DNA of 64,000 nucleotides from Paraburkholderia agricolaris (GTDB lineage: Bacteria > Pseudomonadota > Gammaproteobacteria > Burkholderiales > Burkholderiaceae): positions 3,348,001-3,412,000 of the forward strand of contig NZ_QPER01000002.1 in NCBI RefSeq assembly GCF_009455635.1. The letters run 5' to 3'. A model generated the notes under the pieces. That model was given only the letters and a program-made list of their open reading frames with translations, had not been told where the DNA came from and did not search any database. Made by a program: the position numbers and the translations under genes. Shown here one piece after another: positions 1 through 57,684 of this stretch. Numbering within the stretch: position 1 is the first letter of the stretch; the number at the start of each line of letters is the position of its first letter.

Positions 1-271
1 GCGGGGTAAGCTGGTCGTGTAGACTATGACGGTCGGGGCGCCAATCCGAGTTGCTACGCTCGAACATGCGGAGTGGTTCAGCAGCCAACAGGAACGCCTC
101 CAACTCTGCGCCCCGTGCCTGCGCAATTCCCGAGGCCGTGCAGATTGCTCTGAGGTTAGTAGCCCCCGAGATTCGTCCTTCAACTACGGCAGCGCACACG
201 GCCGCGGCCACCTCGCCGTGAGGCGCGAGAAGCTTGAATGCCTCTCTGACCTCAAACGGGATCGTTCGCAT
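1..271 (-). CDS. DrmC-like protein, N-terminal part only (cut by window edge)
   Basis: An open frame starts with ATG at 271 and runs off the window edge without a stop, giving 90 codons beginning MRTIPFEVREAF. It overlaps the end of the DUF1998 gene by 20 bp, which suggests translational coupling. The visible part is a helical, alanine-rich stretch followed by a turn (MFERSNSDWRPD); no catalytic motif is visible yet. In described DISARM loci the order drmA-drmB-drmC is conserved and drmC encodes a phospholipase D-like protein, so position makes DrmC the first guess. This is inference from context. The PLD HxK motifs would lie outside the window. Confidence 0.55.
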   Translation of the reverse strand, partial: MRTIPFEVREAFKLLAPHGEVAAAVCAAVVEGRISGATNLRAICTASGIAQARGAELEAFLLAAEPLRMFERSNSDWRPDRHSLHDQLTP

Positions 272-2474
272 TCGTTATCTCGAGGAATCCGGGGATGCGC
301 TTGTCCTCGTGCGTCAAGTCTTCGCGTGGCGCTGGTCCACCCTGAAGCACCGCTCTGGAGAGTAGGCGGTTCTGGGCCACGCAGGATGTCTCGGGCACCA
401 TGATGCAGTCAGGGCATGCGCCGCCGTTCAGATCGCAGAGGCTTCCAGAATTGCAACTATGCGTCGCCGGCCGTAGCAGGTGCGTCAAGAAGCGGTTGTT
501 CTCGTTTCGCCATAGAGATGACAAGTTGCCCAAGTCCATAGTGGTGCCGTTGCGGTAGACGACGAAGGCAAGGTCTGCCGGGAACAGGTATTCACCAAGC
601 GACCCGACGTCCAGACCCGAAAACTCGGCAATCGCTTTCATGAAGAGATGCGAGTAGGTGTGCAGCAGGGTGTAGACGTACCGATAGGTGGAGGCGTCCG
701 CACGCTGAAGCAGCGAGAAGTACCGACCGAATGGCTCGGCGCGTTCCAGCAGATTGCCTCCGAATCGAACCGGACTCTCCACGGACCAGCTCGGCAGATC
801 TCGGACGCCAACTGCACTCAGCCATGCGAACACCTTGGTCGGGTCAAGCTGGATGTAGAGGGCCTCGTTCGCTTGAGTGACGACGTAAATGGGGCGTCGT
901 CCGTTCTTGAGCGGCTCGAAGAGCCTCAGTCGGACCGGGATATTCTGGTTGCGCTTCTCCTCGAACGGGGCCGAGAAGACACGGGTGTAACCATGGGTAA
1001 AGCGGCACAGTTCAAAATCACGAATAAGGCCGAACTCAGCGAATCCAAGGCGCCGCATCAAGTCGGCTGTCTTTGCCTCTTGCTTCGCCTGTGCAGTTTC
1101 GTCCTGCGGTGCCAGGTCCTTGTCTAGGCGACGGAACCTAACGAATGGCGCTCGCTCGCCGCTCTGGCTGGTCTTTGAGAGCTTGCTACGTTTGAGCGCC
1201 TCATGCTCAACCGCCAGGCCGAACGGATCGTACCGGCTAGAGAACTCGGGGCGCCGGAGAATCTGTGCTTTTATGGACGCGGGGAGGTCCGCAGAAACGG
1301 GTATCAGAGGCGCTTCCGAGTAGAGCCAGCGATTCGTCAGTTTCTTCAGCTCAGCTTCAACTTCGGTAGCCAATCCGGCGTCTTTGAACTTCTGCGCCAT
1401 GGCAAGCATCTTTTGTTGCCTCTCGTAGGACTCCCATTCGGCGTCGTGGCCGCCATTGAGAAGCACCGCTTTCATCTCTTCAATGGTGGGCGCCGCTCCG
1501 GCAAAGCCAAATAGCCCCGCGATGAAGTTGCCTAGTTCCTTCTCTTGACCTTCTTCCAGGTATTTGAGCAATCCCTGATCCTTCTCTGAGAACATCACGA
1601 ACTGCTCGTGATGGGCATAGAAGGCAGACGAAGCCCGATACGACACAGGCTCCATACGTCGCTCGCCCACTCGTTTGCTACCTTTGTCCTGGAAGACCTC
1701 CGTAGTGAAGGGATCGTTTTGGAGCCAGGTACGCCGCCGATCATTGCACGTGGGATTTGCGCACTGAAAGTACCACTCGCCTATTCGAGGCGACTCTGTC
1801 TTTAGGAGGAACTTGTCACCGTGGCAAAGCGTGCAGACCTCACCAAAGAGCCGCATCTTCTTGTCGCGGCTTGACCACTCCCACATGCCGGGTGTCGCAG
1901 CCTGCCACTCACCAGACCAGTGAACGAAGACGACATCGAGTTGCCTCCACTGACACTTGCCTTTTCCCTTCGGGCTCTGGCACTTTGACGAACGGAAGAA
2001 GTCAGAGGCCTTGGCAGCATCGTGCGCAGAGTCAAACGCTTTGAAGAGACCGCAAGAGTTACAGACGAACGTTAGCGGAGCCGGCGCATACCCCATCTTG
2101 ACTGGATTCACAAACTCTAGGCCACTGCCAGACAGCGGGTGCACGACGGAGCCACGCAGCAGCATCTCATCAATGCACTGTCTCGGGTCAATTTCGCGCC
2201 CGCCTCCGTTCAGACTGTAGGCCCTTGTAAACCAACTCTGCCAGACTTCTCGCAGGCGGAGAACGATTTGCTCCTTTGTAGGTTCTTGGATCGCAGCTTG
2301 GTCAACGACATCGGACTGGTCAGGTACGGCGATGCATGAGCCCAGTCCACCCTCGAAAGTGAAGAATGCACCAGGGGCATAGGCCGCCGCAAGTTGGTTG
2401 CGAGACCGGCTCATGGTGGGCGAACTGAGGCTCTTCTCGTCATCATCGTTGCGCTGATAAGTTTTTTTCGCCAT
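252..2474 (-). CDS. drmB: DrmB-like DUF1998 protein of a DISARM-type operon
   Basis: A 740-aa protein. The C-terminal ~150 residues carry the DUF1998 signature: a HTYSHLFMKAIAEFSG helix, a Cys-rich segment (CNSGSLCDLNGGACPDC) and the ending MVPETSCVAQNRLL. The middle has further Cys pairs (CNSCG near residue 138, CQSPKGKGKC, LCHGD, CANPTC) suggesting zinc binding. DrmB is known as the partner of the DrmA helicase in DISARM, where the two form a DNA-binding complex that blocks incoming phage DNA. The ATG lies 1 bp after the helicase stop, so the two are co-translated. The downstream gene overlaps its end by 20 bp. Family assignment is strong; the symbol is by homology to the DISARM core. Confidence 0.82.
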   Translation of the reverse strand: MAKKTYQRNDDDEKSLSSPTMSRSRNQLAAAYAPGAFFTFEGGLGSCIAVPDQSDVVDQAAIQEPTKEQIVLRLREVWQSWFTRAYSLNGGGREIDPRQCIDEMLLRGSVVHPLSGSGLEFVNPVKMGYAPAPLTFVCNSCGLFKAFDSAHDAAKASDFFRSSKCQSPKGKGKCQWRQLDVVFVHWSGEWQAATPGMWEWSSRDKKMRLFGEVCTLCHGDKFLLKTESPRIGEWYFQCANPTCNDRRRTWLQNDPFTTEVFQDKGSKRVGERRMEPVSYRASSAFYAHHEQFVMFSEKDQGLLKYLEEGQEKELGNFIAGLFGFAGAAPTIEEMKAVLLNGGHDAEWESYERQQKMLAMAQKFKDAGLATEVEAELKKLTNRWLYSEAPLIPVSADLPASIKAQILRRPEFSSRYDPFGLAVEHEALKRSKLSKTSQSGERAPFVRFRRLDKDLAPQDETAQAKQEAKTADLMRRLGFAEFGLIRDFELCRFTHGYTRVFSAPFEEKRNQNIPVRLRLFEPLKNGRRPIYVVTQANEALYIQLDPTKVFAWLSAVGVRDLPSWSVESPVRFGGNLLERAEPFGRYFSLLQRADASTYRYVYTLLHTYSHLFMKAIAEFSGLDVGSLGEYLFPADLAFVVYRNGTTMDLGNLSSLWRNENNRFLTHLLRPATHSCNSGSLCDLNGGACPDCIMVPETSCVAQNRLLSRAVLQGGPAPREDLTHEDKRIPGFLEITNANDPV

Positions 2475-2475
2475 G

Positions 2476-5400
2476 TCAGGCCCCTGAGTCCGAGTTGTCG
2501 GCTACGCCGTCGCGAACGATGTCCATCACCTGCAGGATGTCGGCGCTGCTCTGCTTGTGTCCGAACGGGTCCCGATACGACATGTGTATGAGCCCTCCTT
2601 GGTCGACGTCACGTAGCGAGGTCATTGGCTTCTTCATGGGGTCGGACTGGCCGTCGAAGTAGTCGCGGAGAGGGCCGTCACCCCACATCTTGCTGGACGC
2701 CCAAGTGTCGAGAAACCAATGTGTCTTGGCGTCAATCATCTTTCGGTAATGGTCGGCTCCTTCAGGTGCAAAACCATCTTTCAAGCCAATTGCGAGTTCA
2801 ACGAATGCGTTGATTTCATTGATGAGCGCGCCTCCTCTGTCGCGGTACTCCCTGCGGATGTCCGGGATGTAGGAATACGCCACGGCATGATGCTTCTCGG
2901 TCTCGTCTAGGTCCATGACCTTACGGGTCGGCACGACGCCCGTGAGGAACGCTTGGAAGAGGCTAGGATAGACCCGCTCAACCGCACGCTCTGCCCATCG
3001 GTCGATTGCAGCGGGTGACAACATGCGCTCTAAGAAACGATGGAAGATGTCGAATATCTCGATGATGTGCCTGTCTCGGCGCCGCTGAGGTGTTGGCACG
3101 AGGATGACAAATCCGACGTGCGTGCGACCCACGCGTGACGAGGCCTGGATATACTCTGCGATGTCAGAGGGCATGCCGGCGAAGAACATCGAATTCAGCT
3201 CTTCAACGTCCACTCCGTGGGAGATGGCCGACGTCGCGATGACCGAGCGCAGGACCTTCGAAAGAGGCGTAAAGGGCTTGCCGGGTTCGTCGCGGGTTTG
3301 TGCTGACTGAACCACGGCTTGAATCTCCCCTTGCTCAACTGAACCAGTAATCAAACGCGTGTCCAAGCTCTCTAGGTCCACAAACGCGTTGATGTGCCGT
3401 TTACGGGTCTCCTCGGACTCCGCTGCCATGATTTGGTCGCCACCCTTCTTGTTGGTGACGTAAGTCAGGGCAATCCTGTGGAGGTCTATCGCTGTGGCGA
3501 GATCCGCCTCGCTAGCTGAAATCAATGCTTGACGGTGGATGTCGGAGAGGGGCCCAGCACCTACAAACTCCTCCAGCAAACCTCGCGACTTGGCAATGCG
3601 GGCGGCATCCTGGCTTATGAGGTCTTGGAACAGCCGAGAGATGCACAGATGGAAGTTCGAGAGGACTGCCACGCTGGTCGCGGTGTGAGGCTTGCCGTTC
3701 GTCATAAACGCGCAGTAAAGGCGTGCTTGCTCAGCGGCGAGTTCAATATCTTGCCATTCCTTTCGGGCGGCCTCGTCGGCAAGCCTTGGCTCCGCATAGA
3801 AGGACTCATAGAGGGTTGGACCGGGGTGCGGAAACTGCACCGCCGGGATTGCACGTTGATAGAGATGCTCGAGTTGTCGCTCCGGTTCTGACACCGTAGC
3901 CGAAGCCGCAATCACCTTGGCACGCCGCCGCTTCCCTTCGAGGTCACGGGCAACCACCGTGCCCAACGACTTCGACAGGTGCTCGAAAACAGCGTCAAGC
4001 GTGGACTCGAATAGTCCGGCGAATGCCCCGAGCGACTCGTCGAGCAAGTGCGCCTCGTCCTGGATGAGCAGGCTCGGGAACGGGTCATGGAAGAGTTTTT
4101 TTCCCTTCGGATATGCCGGAAAGAGTCCGTCCATACCCTTGACCGCCGGCCCATCCTTCATGTCTGGTGGTATGGGCACTACGAGGCGCCCCGTGGACTT
4201 GTCCAGCCAGGGGGCACAGCCGAACATGCCGTAGATGCGTCTGATGGTGTTCGGGGAGTGACCTATCAAGGCAAGCTTGTCGACCGTGCCTAGGAGCACG
4301 GAGGGCGCAAGATCATAGATGTCGGCATCGCAAATGAAGAAAGGCAACGGGGTCCAAGTATCAACATTGGAGCGGCACTTGATGTCCGTACACACGTGGG
4401 CGATGGTGCCCCCCAAGGCACTGAACAGCCGCAGCGCCGTCCCCGCTCCGCAGAACGGGCATTTGGGAATCTTGTTCCAAGCACGCCAGGCTGCCATGTA
4501 CCGCTGGTCGTCGTCCTGAAGCTTCTTCTCGGAGGACGGGTCCGCCGGCGCGTCGGCAATGTCGGGGATGCTTTTAACCCCAGGGGCTCGATGGTGGTTA
4601 GGTGAGCCAGTGCTACCTACCCAAAATCCGAGCGAAAACGGTTGGCCGCCGTAGCCGCGGTCTCGCCTGACGAGCTCAGCATGCGCCAGGACTCGGGAAC
4701 AGCGCTGCGCTTGCTGAATAGTCAGTAGACGCAGTGGATACCGCAGCATCGCAGTGACCCCAAAACCCTTGCCGCGTAGCCGGTCCAGCATCAAGTTGAA
4801 TAGCAGCAGGCCGAAGAACGCCTCTGACTTTCCGCCTCCCGTCGCGAAATAGAGCAGCGTGACACAATCGTCCCGGAGCTCCTGGTAGTGGTGTTTGAAT
4901 TCCGGGATGCGTGAGGCTAGCGTTGGCACGTTGGCTACGATGAATGCAAGCTGGAAAAGGCGCCAGGCGCTGTCGTCCCGTTTGAAGCGAACCTTCATAA
5001 AGCTAGCCATCGCTTCATTCATAGCGAGCCAGGCTTCAAAGACTGTTGCCTTCGGGTCGCCCTGAGGGCCACGCGCCTTCCAAGCCTGCTTCGACTCGCT
5101 GAGAATGTCGAGCCCTGCCTTGATAGCTAAGTACTCGCCAGTCCACTTTTGTTTGTCTCGCGCGAATGCATTCTCCTCACGTTCCCTACCTTCAACATCG
5201 TCAGCTCTCAACCCTTTCGAAGGGTCGATGTGCTTTGGTAAATCCGCAAGCCAAGCCTCCAACGCGGGCAGCAAGGGGAAAAGGCCATCGAGGCTGTTCG
5301 GCTCGCTTAGCGCTTGTATGCTGCTCACAACACCCTTGACCGCCGTCGGCACGATGCGTGGTTGAACGTAGCGCGGTATCCAAGTCGTCCGGAGTTCGAC

Positions 5401-6642
5401 GTGGTCCTCCCCCTGTGAAGAATTGACGCCACAATTGTGACCCATTGCTGCGTAGCTTAGGTACTGGTTATATCTGTACGATGGATCAATTCGTTCCAGA
5501 TGCAGTGGGCGGTGGAGCACAGTAGGTACTTGAGCTGTGATTGAGACTTGAAAGACGGCCTCGTCAGTCTCGTCCTTGTGCTGGTGAGGCGACGCACTCC
5601 GGTTCTCGAGTGCCAGGAGCAGGCTAGTCTTCGTGCTGTCGAGCCAATCATCTGCGATGTGTAAATTCCACTTAACGTCGATATTCGGCGATGCAATCAC
5701 CAGATTTGAATTCCTGACCTCTTCCAAATAATCCGACCACTTGCGGTACTTGCTCGCAGGAATTCGCAGACCTCGGCGATAGCCCCAGAGCTGCCCCCCG
5801 GTCTCCGGGTCGCTGCTTTCGCGCCATGCCTTGAGCGTGCCGTCGATCGCAGTTTTCACCTGGACCGCGTGTTCTCGAACGGCAGCCTGCATGTCGGCAT
5901 GAGACTTGCCCGTGTCCAGTAACAGCGAAGGCACTTCTATGTCCAACCGTAGCCACTTGTGAGGGACCGTCATGGGCTCAAAGTGCACGTCCTGAACAGG
6001 TGGGATAGCATCACCGGTTGTCGTGATGCCGGTAAGCGGAGAGGCTGCGGAGTCGCCGGATTCGCCATCTTCGACAGCCGGCTCCTCAAAATCGAGTGTT
6101 GTCAGGCTAGTTGGGATGCCCTTGGAGGCATACACTTCTGCAACGATACGCTCACGTATTTCCTTCCAGCCCGGGTGGCGCGCTCGTGACGTGAAGGCAC
6201 CCTTGACCTTCGCCCATTCTTCATCGAGGCGAGCGTCGCGTTCCGCCTTGACCTCACCCGCGACGGCACTCCGAAGCCGGAACGCGGCCGTGCAATTGGG
6301 CCGCTTGAGGTCATCTGCCGTCGGTAGGACTCGCACGTAGACGCTCAGCCGTGGCTGTGCCTGGATGACACCGGCGACGCCTCGTTCAATCTGAAGTTGG
6401 ACTCCGTGCGAGGAAATCCAAATAGGGGACGTCACCTCGTCATCACCACCAGGAGACTGCTGAGGCAATATGAACCCGGAGTTGAGCACGGTCCTGGGGC
6501 GAGCGCCGAAGAGGAACTTGCCGACTGACCCAGCACCCGAGACGTGCGCATAGACGAGATTGACTATTGAGTCGACCACCGCCTCCTTCATGGAAGTAGG
6601 CAGCGTGACAGGGTCAACGCGATTGACCTCACTTTTCGGCAT
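2476..6642 (-). CDS. drmA: DrmA-like SF2 helicase (DISARM core)
   Basis: A large helicase of about 1388 aa. Visible motifs are Walker A (ATGGGKSEAF), motif Ia/Ib (MLRYPLRLLTIQQAQR), a Cys4-type insert (CPFCG...CTDIKC), the DEAH box (LLIQDEAHLLD), motif III (ASATVSEPERQ), and in the second RecA domain VIATSAISHGVDVEEL with motif VI QASSRVGR. The SHGVD/AEYIQASSRVGR stretch is typical of DrmA-type DISARM helicases. The roughly 600-aa N-terminal part has no obvious catalytic motif. The frame is open to 6708, but ATG at 6642 has a clean GGAGG eight bases upstream, so I use it; this gives a 14-bp overlap with the upstream gene. It sits between the DrmE-like and DUF1998 genes. Confidence 0.85.
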   Translation of the reverse strand: MPKSEVNRVDPVTLPTSMKEAVVDSIVNLVYAHVSGAGSVGKFLFGARPRTVLNSGFILPQQSPGGDDEVTSPIWISSHGVQLQIERGVAGVIQAQPRLSVYVRVLPTADDLKRPNCTAAFRLRSAVAGEVKAERDARLDEEWAKVKGAFTSRARHPGWKEIRERIVAEVYASKGIPTSLTTLDFEEPAVEDGESGDSAASPLTGITTTGDAIPPVQDVHFEPMTVPHKWLRLDIEVPSLLLDTGKSHADMQAAVREHAVQVKTAIDGTLKAWRESSDPETGGQLWGYRRGLRIPASKYRKWSDYLEEVRNSNLVIASPNIDVKWNLHIADDWLDSTKTSLLLALENRSASPHQHKDETDEAVFQVSITAQVPTVLHRPLHLERIDPSYRYNQYLSYAAMGHNCGVNSSQGEDHVELRTTWIPRYVQPRIVPTAVKGVVSSIQALSEPNSLDGLFPLLPALEAWLADLPKHIDPSKGLRADDVEGREREENAFARDKQKWTGEYLAIKAGLDILSESKQAWKARGPQGDPKATVFEAWLAMNEAMASFMKVRFKRDDSAWRLFQLAFIVANVPTLASRIPEFKHHYQELRDDCVTLLYFATGGGKSEAFFGLLLFNLMLDRLRGKGFGVTAMLRYPLRLLTIQQAQRCSRVLAHAELVRRDRGYGGQPFSLGFWVGSTGSPNHHRAPGVKSIPDIADAPADPSSEKKLQDDDQRYMAAWRAWNKIPKCPFCGAGTALRLFSALGGTIAHVCTDIKCRSNVDTWTPLPFFICDADIYDLAPSVLLGTVDKLALIGHSPNTIRRIYGMFGCAPWLDKSTGRLVVPIPPDMKDGPAVKGMDGLFPAYPKGKKLFHDPFPSLLIQDEAHLLDESLGAFAGLFESTLDAVFEHLSKSLGTVVARDLEGKRRRAKVIAASATVSEPERQLEHLYQRAIPAVQFPHPGPTLYESFYAEPRLADEAARKEWQDIELAAEQARLYCAFMTNGKPHTATSVAVLSNFHLCISRLFQDLISQDAARIAKSRGLLEEFVGAGPLSDIHRQALISASEADLATAIDLHRIALTYVTNKKGGDQIMAAESEETRKRHINAFVDLESLDTRLITGSVEQGEIQAVVQSAQTRDEPGKPFTPLSKVLRSVIATSAISHGVDVEELNSMFFAGMPSDIAEYIQASSRVGRTHVGFVILVPTPQRRRDRHIIEIFDIFHRFLERMLSPAAIDRWAERAVERVYPSLFQAFLTGVVPTRKVMDLDETEKHHAVAYSYIPDIRREYRDRGGALINEINAFVELAIGLKDGFAPEGADHYRKMIDAKTHWFLDTWASSKMWGDGPLRDYFDGQSDPMKKPMTSLRDVDQGGLIHMSYRDPFGHKQSSADILQVMDIVRDGVADNSDSGA

Positions 6643-9427
6643 TTGCTTGCCCTCCGGCGGTAGGGACGACTTCCTCGACGGCTGCGAGGTTCTCTCTGGC
6701 CTTGTCAAATAACATCTTCATGGTCTGCCTCTTGACGCCCGAGTGCACCATCACTGACTCGGGTTGCAGCAGCATGTGGGTATATATGTCAGACACCTGC
6801 CGCCCGTCCAAGCGCCGTGCATTTCTGATTGGCATGATGACTCGCTGCCAATAGTAGGCCGCCTCAAGCTTGGACAGGCCGAGAGCTTCGGCAAAGGCTG
6901 CGAAATTGGCCTCTTTCATGGGAGCCTGCGGCTTGAGCTTGTCGAAGGACGTTCCTTCAGACTGACCGAGGTTTACCCACTGCCGAACGGCCTGCTCAGC
7001 GGGAAAGTCCTCTCTCCAACTGGGATGTGCCGTAAGGATTGCAGCTCGAAGTGAACGCACTTTGTCTGAGAGTGCACCGCTTGGCCACGTCTCGCTGAGC
7101 TTGGCAAGAACGTGCTTGTGATAATCCCGCAGTGCGCTCTCGAAAGTCTTGTCGTGCTCGATGGGGATGCCTGCATCCTCAAGGACTGCTTCAACCATTT
7201 CCCGCAGCTCTGCGGCCATGACAAAGAGCTGGTCGCCGGCCTGCAGCGACTTCACCTCACAACTGCGGAAGCCGCGCTCAGAGGCCTCCGCGCTGGACGG
7301 GTCATAAACGTATACACGATGGGTTGGACGCCGGTAGAGCAATGCGCCCGTATCCAACCTAATAATCCAGGCATCTGGGGCGTCGCTCGCTTCTACGTCT
7401 GTGACTTGGCTGTGGAGTTCAGTACGAAACGTCGGAAGGACCAAGTCACTTGTCGTCAGAATGCCGGAGTCCTCGGGAAGATGCGCAAGCTTGCGCAGGA
7501 TGGATTCCATCCTTGGCTTGTAAGCCTTGAAGTCGGGAAACCGCTCGTCCACAAGAGGCCGCAGAACCGCGCGCAGGTACTGTCCGCCTCTTTGGGTCAT
7601 CAGGAGCGCCGTATGGCCCGGGATGCGATTGTCGCTCATCAACACCCGCAAGCCCTCATCGTCGAGTCCCGCGAAGACGACTTGGGTGTGTTCCAAGTCG
7701 ATCAGGTTGTCCTCGAGCCGCGCAGAAGGGACCAGGCGGACTCGCTCCTTGAATTGGTCGAAGGTGACGCCATTTTCAAAGTCTTTGAATCCTTCAAGGA
7801 AGCGCTGAGCAAGCCGTCGGTAAAGCGCGCTTGTGAATACGACGAGCAGTCGCTGCTTCTTATGGCCGGCAATAGCGTAAACGTACTTGGCAAGCAGCAG
7901 AGCAAATGGGGTTGATGTCGAGTAGTTGTTGTACAGCTTTTCGCCGACCCGCATGCACTCACTAAGTGCCTCTCGGTTTCCTCCAGCGCCACCCGACCGT
8001 TCGAACTGCGCGAGTGCTGCGTACTGCGTCGACCAGCTGAAAGCTGCTCGTGTGCGCTCGGCGGTCTCTGCCGCCACTAGCCACTCCATAAGGGTGTCCA
8101 CGCCGCACGGCAGGGACGCAAGTTGAGTTAAATAGACTGCAGCATCAACCACCGGCTTGGCAGCCTCTCGACCACCTGGAGCGTCTGCCGCGATGCGATA
8201 CAGCTTGTTGATGACCTTGGCGGCCTCCGCGTCAACGATTTGAGTGTCTAGTTCACGAGGAACAGGAAGTGCAGGTTCTGACGCTCCAGGAGGGAGCAAG
8301 CCGTCATATCGAGTCGAGCTCGGAATTCCAACAATGTCGTAGCCAGTACCAGGCTGCCAGCGCGCCGAAGGTGGACGCTTTTCATTGAGGTCCCAGAGCT
8401 CTTTCTTGATCCGATAGGCGGCGTGTGGCTCGTCGGTGACCACGATAACACCAGGAGTCTGGTCACCGAAGATCCGTTCAAGCAGCACGCAGAACTTGGC
8501 TAGAAGGCCCTTCCAGCCTTTTGTCTTGAGGCGTATCTCGCGCGTGGCGTTCACGATGACAACTTCCGGGGCACCATTCTTCTTCAGAAGTTCAAGCGCA
8601 CGCATCCGTTCGATGTCGGAGACTCGACCGTCCAGCGCAAACAGCGCGTCCGGGGCCGTTGCTGGATTTCCAATCTCGGCACAGTTGTTCCGTAAGGCCT
8701 TCGCATGAGCTCGTCGCGAAAGCTTGGCGCCGATGTGCGACAAAAGTTGGTCCTCACAACTTTCCCACATTCGGAAGCCCGGAGTCGCGAGGAAGTGCGG
8801 AAGAATCTCTCCAACCGTTGGTTGAAGATTCAGCGTCTTGATTGAGTTGTTTGCGAGCGAAGTCAAGTACGCATCCTTCGCTGGGTACGTGCGTTTGACC
8901 TTCTCGTTCTTCGAGGTCTCCTCCAAGGAAATCGCGTGTCTGAGCACGGCGACGCGCTCCAAGTGCAAGTGATTGAGCGGGAAAAAAACATTGGTCTTGA
9001 CCGGAAAAGTCAACCCCCGGATTCCCTGCTTATCTCCTTCGGCCCAGCGCTCCAGCGTCGCCAGTGCATGCACCAGGACAAGAGTTCGTGGGCTAGCGGG
9101 CCACAACATTGCAATGTGGCGGCTGCGGTGCGCTGCTGCATGCAAGTACAGGTCAACCAGTTTCTTTAGCGCGGCAGCGGGCACGCTTGGAAGCTCCTCG
9201 TCCTCTCTAAAGAGGCCTACGCAAGCGCGCCCGAACCGGCTTTGCACTTGCAGGGTCTGTGGTTTGCTCACCGGCTTTGGCGCCGGCGCTATCGGCGTGG
9301 AGAATGTCGGGGACGCAGGTGCAGTCCGTGCTGGACGACTTATGAGCAAGCGTGCCTGGGCCGCCTTCTTCTCGATTGCTTTAGCTCGATCAGCCTGTCT
9401 GTCTGCAAGTGTTTTGAATTGCGCCAT
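6629..9427 (-). CDS. DrmE-like protein of unknown function in the DISARM-type operon
   Basis: A 932-aa protein with no standard catalytic motif I can name. It starts with a basic, coiled N-terminus (residues 1-60). Rossmann-like beta-alpha stretches follow (VIVVTDEPHAAYRIKKEL near 330; LLVVFTSALYRRLAQRFLEGF near 535; TQVVFAGLDDEGLRVL near 590). A beta-rich segment lies near 690-760 (WIIRLDTGALLYRRP, VYVYDPSSAEASERGF, LQAGDQLFVM). The beta-rich, GDxLFVM-like segment before a helical C-terminus is what I expect of DrmE, the class 2 DISARM protein of unknown role. It starts 33 bp after the methyltransferase and overlaps the helicase. The DrmE label is inference; profile comparison would decide. 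Confidence 0.55.
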   Translation of the reverse strand: MAQFKTLADRQADRAKAIEKKAAQARLLISRPARTAPASPTFSTPIAPAPKPVSKPQTLQVQSRFGRACVGLFREDEELPSVPAAALKKLVDLYLHAAAHRSRHIAMLWPASPRTLVLVHALATLERWAEGDKQGIRGLTFPVKTNVFFPLNHLHLERVAVLRHAISLEETSKNEKVKRTYPAKDAYLTSLANNSIKTLNLQPTVGEILPHFLATPGFRMWESCEDQLLSHIGAKLSRRAHAKALRNNCAEIGNPATAPDALFALDGRVSDIERMRALELLKKNGAPEVVIVNATREIRLKTKGWKGLLAKFCVLLERIFGDQTPGVIVVTDEPHAAYRIKKELWDLNEKRPPSARWQPGTGYDIVGIPSSTRYDGLLPPGASEPALPVPRELDTQIVDAEAAKVINKLYRIAADAPGGREAAKPVVDAAVYLTQLASLPCGVDTLMEWLVAAETAERTRAAFSWSTQYAALAQFERSGGAGGNREALSECMRVGEKLYNNYSTSTPFALLLAKYVYAIAGHKKQRLLVVFTSALYRRLAQRFLEGFKDFENGVTFDQFKERVRLVPSARLEDNLIDLEHTQVVFAGLDDEGLRVLMSDNRIPGHTALLMTQRGGQYLRAVLRPLVDERFPDFKAYKPRMESILRKLAHLPEDSGILTTSDLVLPTFRTELHSQVTDVEASDAPDAWIIRLDTGALLYRRPTHRVYVYDPSSAEASERGFRSCEVKSLQAGDQLFVMAAELREMVEAVLEDAGIPIEHDKTFESALRDYHKHVLAKLSETWPSGALSDKVRSLRAAILTAHPSWREDFPAEQAVRQWVNLGQSEGTSFDKLKPQAPMKEANFAAFAEALGLSKLEAAYYWQRVIMPIRNARRLDGRQVSDIYTHMLLQPESVMVHSGVKRQTMKMLFDKARENLAAVEEVVPTAGGQANAEK

Positions 9428-9460
9428 AGATCAAATCGAAATTCAGCCTCTGCACGGAAA

Positions 9461-11212
9461 TCAGGAGGTGGTTATACCGAATGCCCGCATGACAATGTCG
9501 TCAACGAGTCCGCCTTTACTTAACTCTTGCTTCAGCACTTCGGGGTCTGGCAGAACCAGTTGGTTCAACTCGAACGCCGAAACGTTGGTCGCACCGGATA
9601 TGCACCGAAAGTACCTGTCGACTGGTCGACTCCTCAGGAGCGCTGCTAGTTGCTTCGGCGTCACGGCAGGACGGTCAACATTCTGCTCAAGAATCACAAT
9701 ATGATTCTCGCCGACGAAGCCCCTGTACTTAGTCATTAACGTGACTGGCACAGGGGCTGCCACCAGCCGCAGTGGTTGATCGTTCGACGTAACCCGTTGC
9801 AGAACAACACTTGGGCGGGTGATGACGCCAGGTTGCCTTGTGCTTCCTAAGTCTACGAACGAATGCTTGTCCGGATTGCTCTCATCGGGCTGGAAATCCA
9901 CCCTCGCTCCGCGCTGAGTCAGGACGATGTCCTTCGACCAAATCAGCGGCAGTGCGCTTCGTGCCCTGGCCTTGTTTGCTTTTTTCTTTGAAGGATAAGA
10001 AGGTCGTTCGTCGCGGTTCCAGACGAAGAGTCCAATACGCACACGATAGCCATAGTCAGCGAGTCGGAACTTCAGACGGCTGGCCAGAGTCAAGAGTTGA
10101 ATATCTTCTGGGGCGCGCGGAATTGGCCAAGCTGCTCCAGAGTTCGGAAGCGCGCACTCCCCAACGCCCGTATAAATGCCTTCGCCCGATACAACGGAGA
10201 CCTTGACGTTGGTCGGGAGCGGATGCACCGCGGCATGCTTCCGCAGTATGCAGAGCGCTGTCTCTTGCTCCACGTCGATGAACACGCCAAGTCTGGAACT
10301 GACCATGCCGATGTGGGCAAGAAACGTATTCGCCATGAGGTACGTCCGCAGCTTGCGGAAATACTGTCCCGAAAGAAAACTGGTCGGGGTAACGAGCCCA
10401 ACCAGGCCACTGTCACCAGCAAGCTCAACGCACCGTGCGATGAAGAGTGCATAGATGTTTGGCTGCGCTTCAATGATGTGGTCAAATGACTCGCGCAGTG
10501 GCCCAAGCTCTTCGGCGGTCATTTTTCTGTACGGGGGGTTGCAAACCACAACCCGATGTGCCGCCGACGAGTCAATTGGGTCGAGAAGGGAATCACCCAC
10601 GCGCACGTTAAACCGTGGCTTGTACCCCCCCTCGCGAATCTCGGGATGCAGCGCCATCCGCAGGAAGTGTCTCGACAGACTGCATAGGGTCGGCTCAAGG
10701 TCGATGCCATTGAGGTGTTCTTCGATGTGGAGAAGCACCTGCCTAGTGGTCTTTCCCTGTGCAAGTAAAGCCTCTCGCATTCGGAGGGCAATGGGTGCCA
10801 GAAACGCGGCGCCGCCGCAGGCCGGATCAAAGAACGTATGGACCGCGAAGTCAGCCCCTTGCGTAGCAAGGTCATCGAGCAGGCCTCGAACGAGCGAGGG
10901 CGGCGTAAAGAACATCGCCAACTGCTTGCGCTGTTTTTCGTCAGCGAGCATGGCGTATGCGGAGCTCAGCCAATAGGTCGACTCCAAGAAATCTGCATCA
11001 CGCAAAAATTCGACGAAGCGAACCACTTGAGGCTCCTCACGTAGACTCTTCGACGATGGAAGTCCGTGTGAGCCCAAACCCGGATAGTCGTGGCTGCACC
11101 AAAGCGAAAGTACGGTGCCGACAAACTGATTAGACGGTATTTTCAACCTGAGCAGCAGCCTCCGCAGATCATTAATGCTGCGGAAGATGCTGAGTTTGGA
11201 CTTCGGCTTCAT
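9461..11212 (-). CDS. N6-adenine DNA methyltransferase (DISARM modification gene, DrmMI-type chemistry)
   Basis: A 583-aa protein with the SAM-binding motif FFDPACGGAAFL near residue 129 and the catalytic NPPY motif (VVCNPPYRKM) near 225, the signature of gamma-class N6-adenine methyltransferases of the Eco57I/type I M family. The C-terminal ~200 residues look like a target-recognition domain (GENHIVILEQ, YFRCISGATNVSAFELNQLVLPD). It is the first gene of the operon; start context is weak. In DISARM the methyltransferase marks host DNA as self. Class 2 loci, which carry DrmE, are described with a 5-cytosine methyltransferase (DrmMII); an N6-adenine enzyme next to a DrmE-like gene is unusual. 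It is well under the length I would expect for DrmMI. Confidence 0.85.
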   Translation of the reverse strand: MKPKSKLSIFRSINDLRRLLLRLKIPSNQFVGTVLSLWCSHDYPGLGSHGLPSSKSLREEPQVVRFVEFLRDADFLESTYWLSSAYAMLADEKQRKQLAMFFTPPSLVRGLLDDLATQGADFAVHTFFDPACGGAAFLAPIALRMREALLAQGKTTRQVLLHIEEHLNGIDLEPTLCSLSRHFLRMALHPEIREGGYKPRFNVRVGDSLLDPIDSSAAHRVVVCNPPYRKMTAEELGPLRESFDHIIEAQPNIYALFIARCVELAGDSGLVGLVTPTSFLSGQYFRKLRTYLMANTFLAHIGMVSSRLGVFIDVEQETALCILRKHAAVHPLPTNVKVSVVSGEGIYTGVGECALPNSGAAWPIPRAPEDIQLLTLASRLKFRLADYGYRVRIGLFVWNRDERPSYPSKKKANKARARSALPLIWSKDIVLTQRGARVDFQPDESNPDKHSFVDLGSTRQPGVITRPSVVLQRVTSNDQPLRLVAAPVPVTLMTKYRGFVGENHIVILEQNVDRPAVTPKQLAALLRSRPVDRYFRCISGATNVSAFELNQLVLPDPEVLKQELSKGGLVDDIVMRAFGITTS

Positions 11213-21106: not shown

Positions 21107-21775
21107 AGGTATCCGTCACAGTGGGCGGCGATCGAATCCATCGCCCCCAAGATCGGCTGCACGAGCCAGACGCTGCTGGGATGGGTCAAGCGAGAGGAAG
21201 TCGATAGCGGTGAGCGTGAAGGCGTGAGCACGGCGGAACGCGAACGTCTTAAGGCGCTGGAGCGCGAAGTCAAGGAACTACGCCGCGCCAACGAGATTCT
21301 GAAACTGGCGAGTGCGTTTTTCGCCCAGGCGGAGCTCGACCGCCGCCTGAAGTCCTGAAGGCCTTCATCGATCAGCATCGCGACACCTTCGGGGTCGAGC
21401 CGATCTGCAAGGTCTTGCGGATTGCCCCGTCGGGCTACCGGCGCCATGCTGCACAGCTTCGCGATCCGTCGCGCCGCTGCGCTCGTGCGATACGCGATGA
21501 ACGCCTGCGGCCGGAGATCCAGCGTGTCTGGCAAGCCAACATGCGGGTCTACGGAGCGGATAAAGTCTGGAAGCAGATGAACCGGGAGCGTATCGCGGTG
21601 GCTCGCTGCACTGTCGAACGGCTGATGAAGCAACTGGGTTTGCGTGGCGTGATGCGAGGCAAACGTGTTCGCACGACCATTGCCGATGTGGTGGCCGCGC
21701 GCCCGCTGGATCGGGTCAACCGGCAGTTCAGGGCAGACCGGCCAAACCAGCTCTGGGTGTCGGATTTCACGTACG
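21107..21775 (+). pseudogene. IS3-family orfA-orfB transposase remnant, split by a group II intron
   Basis: OrfA survives from [17 protein letters not shown] to its stop at 21358 (leucine-zipper-like [26 protein letters not shown]); an in-frame TGA at 21104 and altered sequence cut it off from its N-terminus. OrfB follows in the -1 frame from about 21352 ([22 protein letters not shown]) and runs to WVSDFTY at 21775, the first aspartate region of the DDE domain, where the group II intron begins. The overlap of orfA and orfB fits programmed -1 frameshifting of IS3. The remaining orfB exon is not found after the intron, so the element is dead. Confidence 0.8.
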
Positions 21776-57118: not shown

Positions 57119-57611
57119 TCAGATAACTTTCTCGATTGCGGCTGAGACACTCCAACTATGCCATGTGCCGAGGCGTTCTTTTAGTATGGCGCGATGACGT
57201 GCGGCGTTCATCTGATGTCTGGGAAGCGCGAAGTGCTGACGGATCGGGCCGAAGCATGAGAGAAACGCCTGCGTGCGACGCGCGTCGCGAAAGCCGTACA
57301 TCTGGCGTTCCCGCCTACGGGTTGGCTGGTGACTGTTCTCAGCGCGGTTGTTTACGCGTGCGACCGCTTTGACGAAAACGTGCTTTACCTGAGCGAGCTC
57401 AGGAATATCAGCCTTCGCCGCCGGATAACTGCGTAGTTGGTCGGTAACGATTTTGCGCGGCACCGGGTTTGAACGCAGCACCCGCCGAAAGAAGCGCTTT
57501 GCCGCGGCCTTGTCGCGACGCTTTTGCACCAGCACATCGAGTTCGGCGCCGTGCTCGTCGACCGCCCGCCACAACAGGTACGGCTCACCGCGCAGCGTCA
57601 CGAACAGGTAA
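57119..57611 (-). pseudogene. IS6-family (second type) transposase interrupted by a group II intron
   Basis: A 163-codon frame from the intron junction: LFVTLRGEPYLLWRAVDEHGAELDVL, KIVTDQLRSYPAAKADIPEL, RVNNRAENSHQPTRRRERQM, SCFGPIRQHFALPRHQMNAARHRA. All three catalytic acidic residues are visible (AVDEHG, VTDQLR, RAENSH). The 5' exon is missing beyond the intron end at 57612, so the protein is incomplete. Confidence 0.8.
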
Positions 57612-57684
57612 GTAGGCCCGGGGGATTTCACCCCCGAGCCTCTCGCAGAACCGTGCGTAAACCTCTCGATTTACACGGCTCCCG
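57612..57684 (-). ncRNA. Group II intron domains V-VI and 3' splice site
   Basis: On the minus strand a 34-nt domain V (57648-57681) begins GAGCCGTGTAAATC and ends CGCACGGTTC, with the AGC-type base and the expected GAAA-like loop region (GAGAGG here). It is followed by a domain VI hairpin (CTCGGGGG...CCCCCGG) and the 3' end CCTAC at 57612. The IS6 exon starts directly after. The 5' half of this intron is missing. Confidence 0.8.

Follow-up and report, generated by a model that had tools for sequence, protein, structure and literature searches.

Gene content and setting of the operon

The window analysed here, a stretch of 64,000 nucleotides from the 8.72-Mb, two-contig genome of Paraburkholderia agricolaris (G000:C2:3348001-3412000), opens within an operon of five minus-strand genes, listed below from its 5' end; L002 is the stretch of the same genome that reaches past base 1 of the window.

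9461..11212, minus strand: N6-adenine-type (gamma, Eco57I-like) DNA methyltransferase, 583 aa (Pfam, PADLOC, PDB match, motifs)
6629..9427, minus strand: DrmE-like protein, 932 aa; predicted SF2-helicase fold, apparently degenerate, at about residues 60-660 and a DrmE_C-like C-terminal region at about 680-890
2476..6642, minus strand: DrmA, YprA-family SF2 helicase (profiles, 7s9v match, motifs; probable start ATG 6642)
252..2474, minus strand: DrmB, DUF1998-type partner of DrmA, 740 aa (PADLOC, NCBIfam, 7s9v_B, C-terminal cysteines)
1..271, minus strand: DrmC (PLD-like nuclease), first 90 codons (PADLOC, NCBIfam, Pfam); whole gene at L002:17405-18271, minus strand

The frames lie where a preliminary description of this DNA had placed them (9461-11212, 6629-9427, 2476-6708 with 1410 aa, 252-2474 and an open frame at 2-271) and are as tightly joined as it held, with gaps of at most 33 bp: counted from ATG 6642 of DrmA, the spacings are +33, -14, +1 and -20 bp. 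Such spacings suggest one transcription unit; a promoter and terminator scan 5' of the operon gave a result no better than shuffles. Chance is excluded as the source of the layout because the order DrmE-like gene, DrmA, DrmB was found again in 16 other loci (L004, L005, L013-L018, L048, L019, L020 and L023-L027). The open DrmA frame extends to a TTG at 6708, which gives an 80-bp overlap with the 932-aa gene. The ATG at 6642 is preceded by GGAGGG, DrmA of L004, L005 and L048 aligns from its codon and that of L014 and L018 from 4-5 codons earlier, and this ATG is the likely start.

The DISARM core drmA-drmB-drmC was recognized correctly. Profile searches with the operon proteins matched all three in PADLOC (DrmA 1.8e-80, DrmB 1.4e-15, DrmC 6.6e-12) and in NCBIfam (DISARM_DrmAS 9.4e-101, DrmB_fam 2.9e-14, DISARM_DrmC_I 1.1e-14, all three below the curated cut-offs), and the solved DISARM DrmAB, 7s9v, is the sole PDB sequence matched at 1e-3 by DrmA (1.7e-45) and by DrmB (7s9v_B, 1.5e-4). 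DrmA carries GGGKS and DEAH together with the two helicase motifs reported earlier, SHGVD at 1160 and SSRVGR at 1187 (numbered on the translation of 2476-6699). The 740-aa protein had been called a DUF1998 protein; Pfam gave no DUF1998 match, and what stands is its identity as DrmB, to which the DrmB profiles match, with cysteines near the C-terminus at residues 674-698. The preliminary description had named beforehand, as grounds for abandoning it, an edge frame that was not a PLD-domain protein. The DrmC gene runs 596 bp past base 1 of the window, and the completed frame encodes 288 aa, with a PLD HxK motif and a Pfam PLDc_2 match (5.7e-11).

The methyltransferase has the expected NPPY at residue 225 and motif I, DPACGG, at 129; it matches N6_Mtase (1.2e-12) and Eco57I (5e-12) in Pfam and MTase_II (PDLC03338; 3.2e-161, 536 bits) in PADLOC, and its sole PDB match is M.BseCI (7qw5, 1.7e-4). 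It is indeed shorter than the usual DrmMI: the enzyme in the class 1 locus of Paracoccus pMARC5, as annotated by RefSeq, has 1387 aa, and this one has 583 aa. The 1387-aa DrmMI-type enzyme of L041 had no tblastn match in the window or L002, and DrmMI is not among the 25 of 35 PADLOC families listed for the window. PDLC03338 is labelled merely as a Type II methyltransferase, and its members may belong to the DISARM composition described here.

Past the window edge, L002 encodes a reverse transcriptase, a serine recombinase and two HTH proteins, and the frame at L002:5574-6305 was recognized by eye as transposase-like; DUF932, ParB-like and ParA-like genes lie 5' of the operon (window:13519-18514). 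Given these neighbours on both sides, the operon may reside within mobile, integrative or plasmid-derived DNA. Elsewhere in the window, at 57119-57683, the frame of an IS240-type transposase and a group II intron match (Rfam RF00029, 51.5 bits) share a strand and overlap, and an ALIL pseudoknot is found at 21313-21429.

Kinship and predicted fold of the 932-aa protein

Searches with the 932-aa protein found no match among the profiles of PADLOC (to E 10), Pfam and NCBIfam (to E 1) and nothing usable among PDB sequences, and the DrmE HMMs of PADLOC, NCBIfam and Pfam matched none of the eight members of its family that were tested. The family is large: a second protein search, made with a 41-row alignment, found 201 proteins belonging to it, and the 120 of them that were listed held no bridge to DrmE. 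Among viral contigs, none of 47 pattern matches for relatives was confirmed, and tblastn returned no phage record. A 1792-aa fusion protein of the locus L022, tried as the first route to DrmE, gave no plasmid relatives; these were obtained by a DrmA search of plasmids.

The name DrmE-like nevertheless holds at the level of profile-profile alignment, where the match lies well above shuffles and control families. Compared with 19 proteins from the DrmE slot, the family gave an hhalign value of 97.68% (score 115.6, 442 columns, colinear), and with 15 DrmE relatives 94.1% (score 74.4), against at most 1.2% for shuffles and at most 0.71% for seven control families, three of which are single proteins. 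Run without context pseudocounts, the true pairs scored 89.9 (slot proteins) and 51.5 (relatives), as compared to 21.6 and 28.4 for the best of 100 column shuffles, and four leave-one-out runs aligned 356 to 653 columns, at 97%. The signal is mostly C-terminal: by region, the values were 96.8% for the C-terminal part, 66.9% for the second RecA-like half taken together with the insert and 2.0% for the first, and the bulk falls within the DrmE_C region. It also depends on diverse alignment rows, since the 41-row alignment (A1) matched 12 DrmE relatives at 1.4% and a 24-row alignment (A2) at 59.2%. Among seven slot proteins compared singly, those of L035 and L031 reached 28.1% and 14.1% and the rest less than 5%, with the best stretch C-terminal in six of the seven; the slot protein of L038 scored below its own shuffles. 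The slot protein of L. plantarum, the only one of the added proteins to have a 5mC methyltransferase next to it, gave 0.92% when used alone, with a score of 25.1 and a shuffle maximum of 23.9. Taken together, these comparisons point to the 932-aa protein being related to DrmE, as a distant and very divergent homolog.

Structure prediction, which the preliminary description had proposed for this comparison, places the same elements in the same order in the models of the 932-aa protein and of DrmE, with SF2 cores matched, and both models match SF2 helicases of the Hef/XPF/RIG-I kind. A match of the 932-aa protein to an unrelated family, the other outcome on which the earlier proposal would have fallen, did not occur, an SF2 fold being found for DrmE too. 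The model of the 932-aa protein has two RecA-like domains in Hef/XPF/RIG-I order, and its listed fold matches consist of helicases and further ATPases of SF1/SF2. Model quality is poor for DrmE (pLDDT 59.3, pTM 0.35), below that for the 932-aa protein. TM-scores to PDB helicases are low (0.10-0.39 among the matches listed) because the lobes do not align in a single superposition, and many SF2 chains share the same Z. The Walker A signature GK[ST] is missing from residues 61-330 in all 150 members searched, and in 24 of 24 aligned rows WPxxx takes its place at the P-loop. Judged from the model and the lost loop, the 932-aa protein is apparently an ATPase-dead, degenerate SF2 helicase. The helicase part of XPF is likewise inactive. 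With XPF, Hef, FANCM and RIG-I the protein shares two RecA-like domains with a helical insert, a likeness of fold only; its C-terminal domain and its context differ from theirs, and it has no PDB sequence match.

Recurrence of the gene combination and likely exchange of its methyltransferase

The gene combination recurs as a lineage in other Pseudomonadota. The DrmE-like gene is followed by DrmA and then DrmB in all 17 loci, counting the window; L023-L027 were chosen by DrmA and the remaining loci by the 932-aa protein. An N6 methyltransferase stands directly upstream in 15 of the 17 and downstream in L024, and none was found in L020; that of L027 was assigned by its RefSeq label and NPPY, and the member of the 932-aa family in L025 by slot, alignment and tree. 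Motif IV reads NPPY in 12 and NPPF in four of 16 methyltransferases from loci of this composition. DrmC was found in 12 of the 17 loci, its PLD pattern matching in all 12; in the frames scanned behind DrmB in L015-L018 and L026 the pattern had no match. Repeats were left out of these counts, namely L044 and L049 (as L005), L042, L045 and L046 (window, L013 and L014) and L043 (within L048), as were H10, whose match values equal those of H9, and L047, a 20-bit match over 92 positions. The composition was seen in Beta- and Alphaproteobacteria, and in Gammaproteobacteria by protein names alone. It is infrequent: including the genome studied, matches came from 3 of 398 genomes in the phylum and 6 of 299 in the family (both with A1) and from 6 of 399 in the order (with A2; one of the six a 20-bit match), and from none of 289 in the class of G289, in a search run without a positive control. 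In Sinorhizobium americanum plasmid A (L026:13244-19051), DrmB is broken by IS66-type insertions.

The tree of the methyltransferase disagrees with those of its neighbours. In L014 and L018, identity to the window is 26-27% for the 932-aa protein, 43-44% for DrmA and 42% for DrmB, and 55-56% for the methyltransferase (59-61% in its catalytic and 54-55% in its C-terminal part); in L004 the relation is reversed, with 54%, 61% and 64% for the three proteins against 38% for the methyltransferase. In whole-tree AU tests on ten loci (L016 and the Alphaproteobacteria left out), the methyltransferase data reject the trees of the 932-aa family, DrmA and DrmB (p <=3.3e-6), and the methyltransferase tree is rejected by the data of those three genes (3.4e-6, 0.0115 and 0.0059); in the SH test, the DrmA data stop short of rejecting it (0.0504). 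The DrmA tree is accepted by the 932-aa data (0.13) and the DrmB data (0.30), whereas the DrmA data reject the DrmB tree (6e-8) and that of the 932-aa family (0.0015), and the DrmB tree is also rejected by the 932-aa data (0.0099). Because DrmA and the 932-aa family also reject trees of their own partners, shallow conflict is general, and the methyltransferase is set apart solely by the deep place of L014 and L018, which DrmA rejects (p 1.3e-5); single-clade tests on the methyltransferase were not significant (p 0.09 and 0.06). Exchange of the methyltransferase between loci, as these trees suggest, is likely, not proven.

In a DrmA tree of 28 rows (L016, L017 and L048 left out), a branch with support 100 sets the 14 rows of this composition apart. 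A second branch, also with support 100, joins to them the DrmE-slot loci L028, L031 and L036-L038 together with L030 and L039, two loci with 5mC enzymes nearby; on its other side lie class 1 (L032, L041) and L022, L029, L033, L034 and L040. DrmA of this composition adjoins haloarchaeal DrmE loci, away from class 1. The DrmE-carrying loci are not one group, since L022, L029 and L040 fall on the class 1 side; long branches are flagged by the tool in this tree.

In the DISARM locus of a Rubrobacter tropicus plasmid (L031:3436-7916) the slot protein has a weak DrmE_C match (2.3e-4, below cut-off) and a 645-aa DUF1156-like methyltransferase lies upstream, perhaps another mixed composition. The 1792-aa protein of the class 2-like locus L022 (L022:5613-10991) opens with an intact P-loop (GPSGTGKS) and carries a DrmE-family domain (NF038316) at residues 1545-1770, possibly a fusion of DrmE to an active ATPase. 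Halobacterium salinarum pNRC200 (L035:7953-10460) has a DrmE family gene between ISH elements, with DrmA and DrmB not annotated in the 18-kb stretch shown. A Tsukamurella tyrosinosolvens plasmid (L034:4114-20067) has a large composite locus in which a 5mC methyltransferase, a UvrD helicase, a DrmA-like helicase, a DUF1998 protein, a DEAD helicase and a restriction M subunit follow in one run.

A probable third DISARM composition and its proposed working

We took class definitions from the accessible portions of two papers. By a figure legend on PADLOC (PMC9252829), type I requires DrmA, DrmB, DrmC, DrmD and DrmMI and forbids drmE, and type II requires DrmA, DrmB, DrmC, DrmE and DrmMII; Bravo et al. 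(PMC9142583) describe DISARM as having DrmMI, DrmMII or both and defer the roles of DrmD and DrmE to later work. The layout lies outside both classes, as the preliminary description had argued, fitting neither PADLOC rule as given in that portion of the text. A DrmD query (E 0.01) and two 5mC enzymes had no tblastn match in the window or L002; in the whole genome, DrmD gave none (no positive control) and the 5mC search a single match, of 73 residues and on the other contig. We read the operon as a third DISARM composition, in which an N6-adenine-type methyltransferase and a DrmE-like protein accompany DrmA, DrmB and DrmC.

We consider it probable that the operon is an intact anti-phage system of the DISARM family, of this third composition, and that it works along the following lines, in which we infer the defence itself, m6A as the product, the part of a platform and the sequence of steps. 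The methyltransferase would put an m6A mark on host DNA. DrmA-DrmB would act as the ATP-driven helicase and load onto phage DNA, either as it enters or while it replicates, in the way solved for class 1 DrmAB, which the accessible text of PMC9142583 presents as motor and sensor. The DrmE-like protein, with its SF2 fold and lost ATP-binding loop, could by analogy with XPF serve as a DNA- or partner-binding platform that (i) helps DrmAB engage DNA and (ii) couples DrmAB to the m6A mark. DrmC would cut, as an optional nuclease that was not found in some loci and is reported as non-essential in the same portion of PMC9142583.

The 932-aa protein could instead be a separate pseudo-helicase, independently recruited into the DrmE/DrmD slot and sharing with DrmE_C only a small domain. 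The C-terminal concentration of the hhalign signal, with 2.0% in the first RecA-like half, and the silence of the DrmE HMMs speak for such a recruit; its occupation of the same slot directly before DrmA, its similar length, the common order of predicted elements, the long leave-one-out alignments and the proximity of its DrmA to that of haloarchaeal DrmE loci speak for descent, and we hold independent recruitment to be unlikely. The separation of the DrmE-carrying loci in the DrmA tree moved our estimate minutely toward it and, by as little, away from the DISARM system proposed above.

Two further readings seem to us very improbable, to a similar degree. The PADLOC label MTase_II would suit an ordinary Type II restriction-modification pair, with the 932-aa protein as endonuclease, beside a solitary drmABC set; the conserved gene order makes this unlikely, as the gaps are short and the methyltransferase and 932-aa genes stand together in 15 of 17 loci, and the fold matches listed for the 932-aa protein are to helicases and other SF1/SF2 ATPases, with no nuclease found by PADLOC, Pfam or NCBIfam. 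The operon could also be a copy that has decayed or fallen silent and gives this genome no defence, as might be expected with a transposase-like frame, a serine recombinase and a reverse transcriptase adjoining it and a related copy interrupted by IS66; but the five frames are all open, and the methyltransferase, DrmA and DrmC have the catalytic motifs that were tested.

If the operon is such a DISARM system, the two-class picture is incomplete, with a lineage that combines DrmE-like and adenine-marking parts and is neither type I nor type II by the PADLOC rules. The literature searched gives no function for DrmE, and the predicted fold, likewise not found there, offers a concrete idea of what DrmE-type proteins are. 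We tentatively extend it to a broader proposal, which we hold possible though rather doubtful: DrmE and its 932-aa relative would both be ATPase-dead SF2 helicases of the Hef/XPF/RIG-I kind, and DISARM of every class would be a two-helicase sensor in which an active DrmA-DrmB motor works with a second SF2 partner that reads DNA structure, the SNF2-like DrmD in class 1 and a pseudo-helicase in class 2 and the third composition, with the methyltransferase as an exchangeable self-marking module. The conflict between the methyltransferase tree and the others suggests that a new self mark could be taken up while the effector stays, which bears on how DISARM discriminates self from non-self.

The composition is not described in the literature searched, taken without supplementary files and figures, and DISARM-like Pseudomonas operons of PMC10270631, as far as its accessible text goes, may include it. 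From ARMADA (Bell et al. 2025, PMC12458937), with which it shares a YprA-family helicase and a DNA methyltransferase, the operon differs in that, by the accessible part of that account, ARMADA has a BrxHII/RapA-like helicase, a PglX-like methyltransferase and a YprA helicase fused to DUF1998 along with a Vsr-type nuclease, whereas here DrmA, DrmB and the PLD protein are separate and the 932-aa protein matches no helicase profile. With class 1 the operon has in common DrmA, DrmB, DrmC and an adenine-type methyltransferase; class 1 differs by its SNF2-like DrmD, of which no match was found here, and its much longer methyltransferase, annotated by RefSeq in the Paracoccus pMARC5 locus beside a DrmD of 1022 aa. 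Class 2 shares with it DrmA, DrmB, DrmC, a methyltransferase in first place and, by profile-profile alignment, a DrmE-related protein directly upstream of DrmA, but the DrmE relative here is too distant for the DrmE HMMs tried, DrmA forms its own clade, and where the class 2 enzyme, DrmMII, is a 5mC methyltransferase, that of the third composition is of the N6-adenine type with NPPY.
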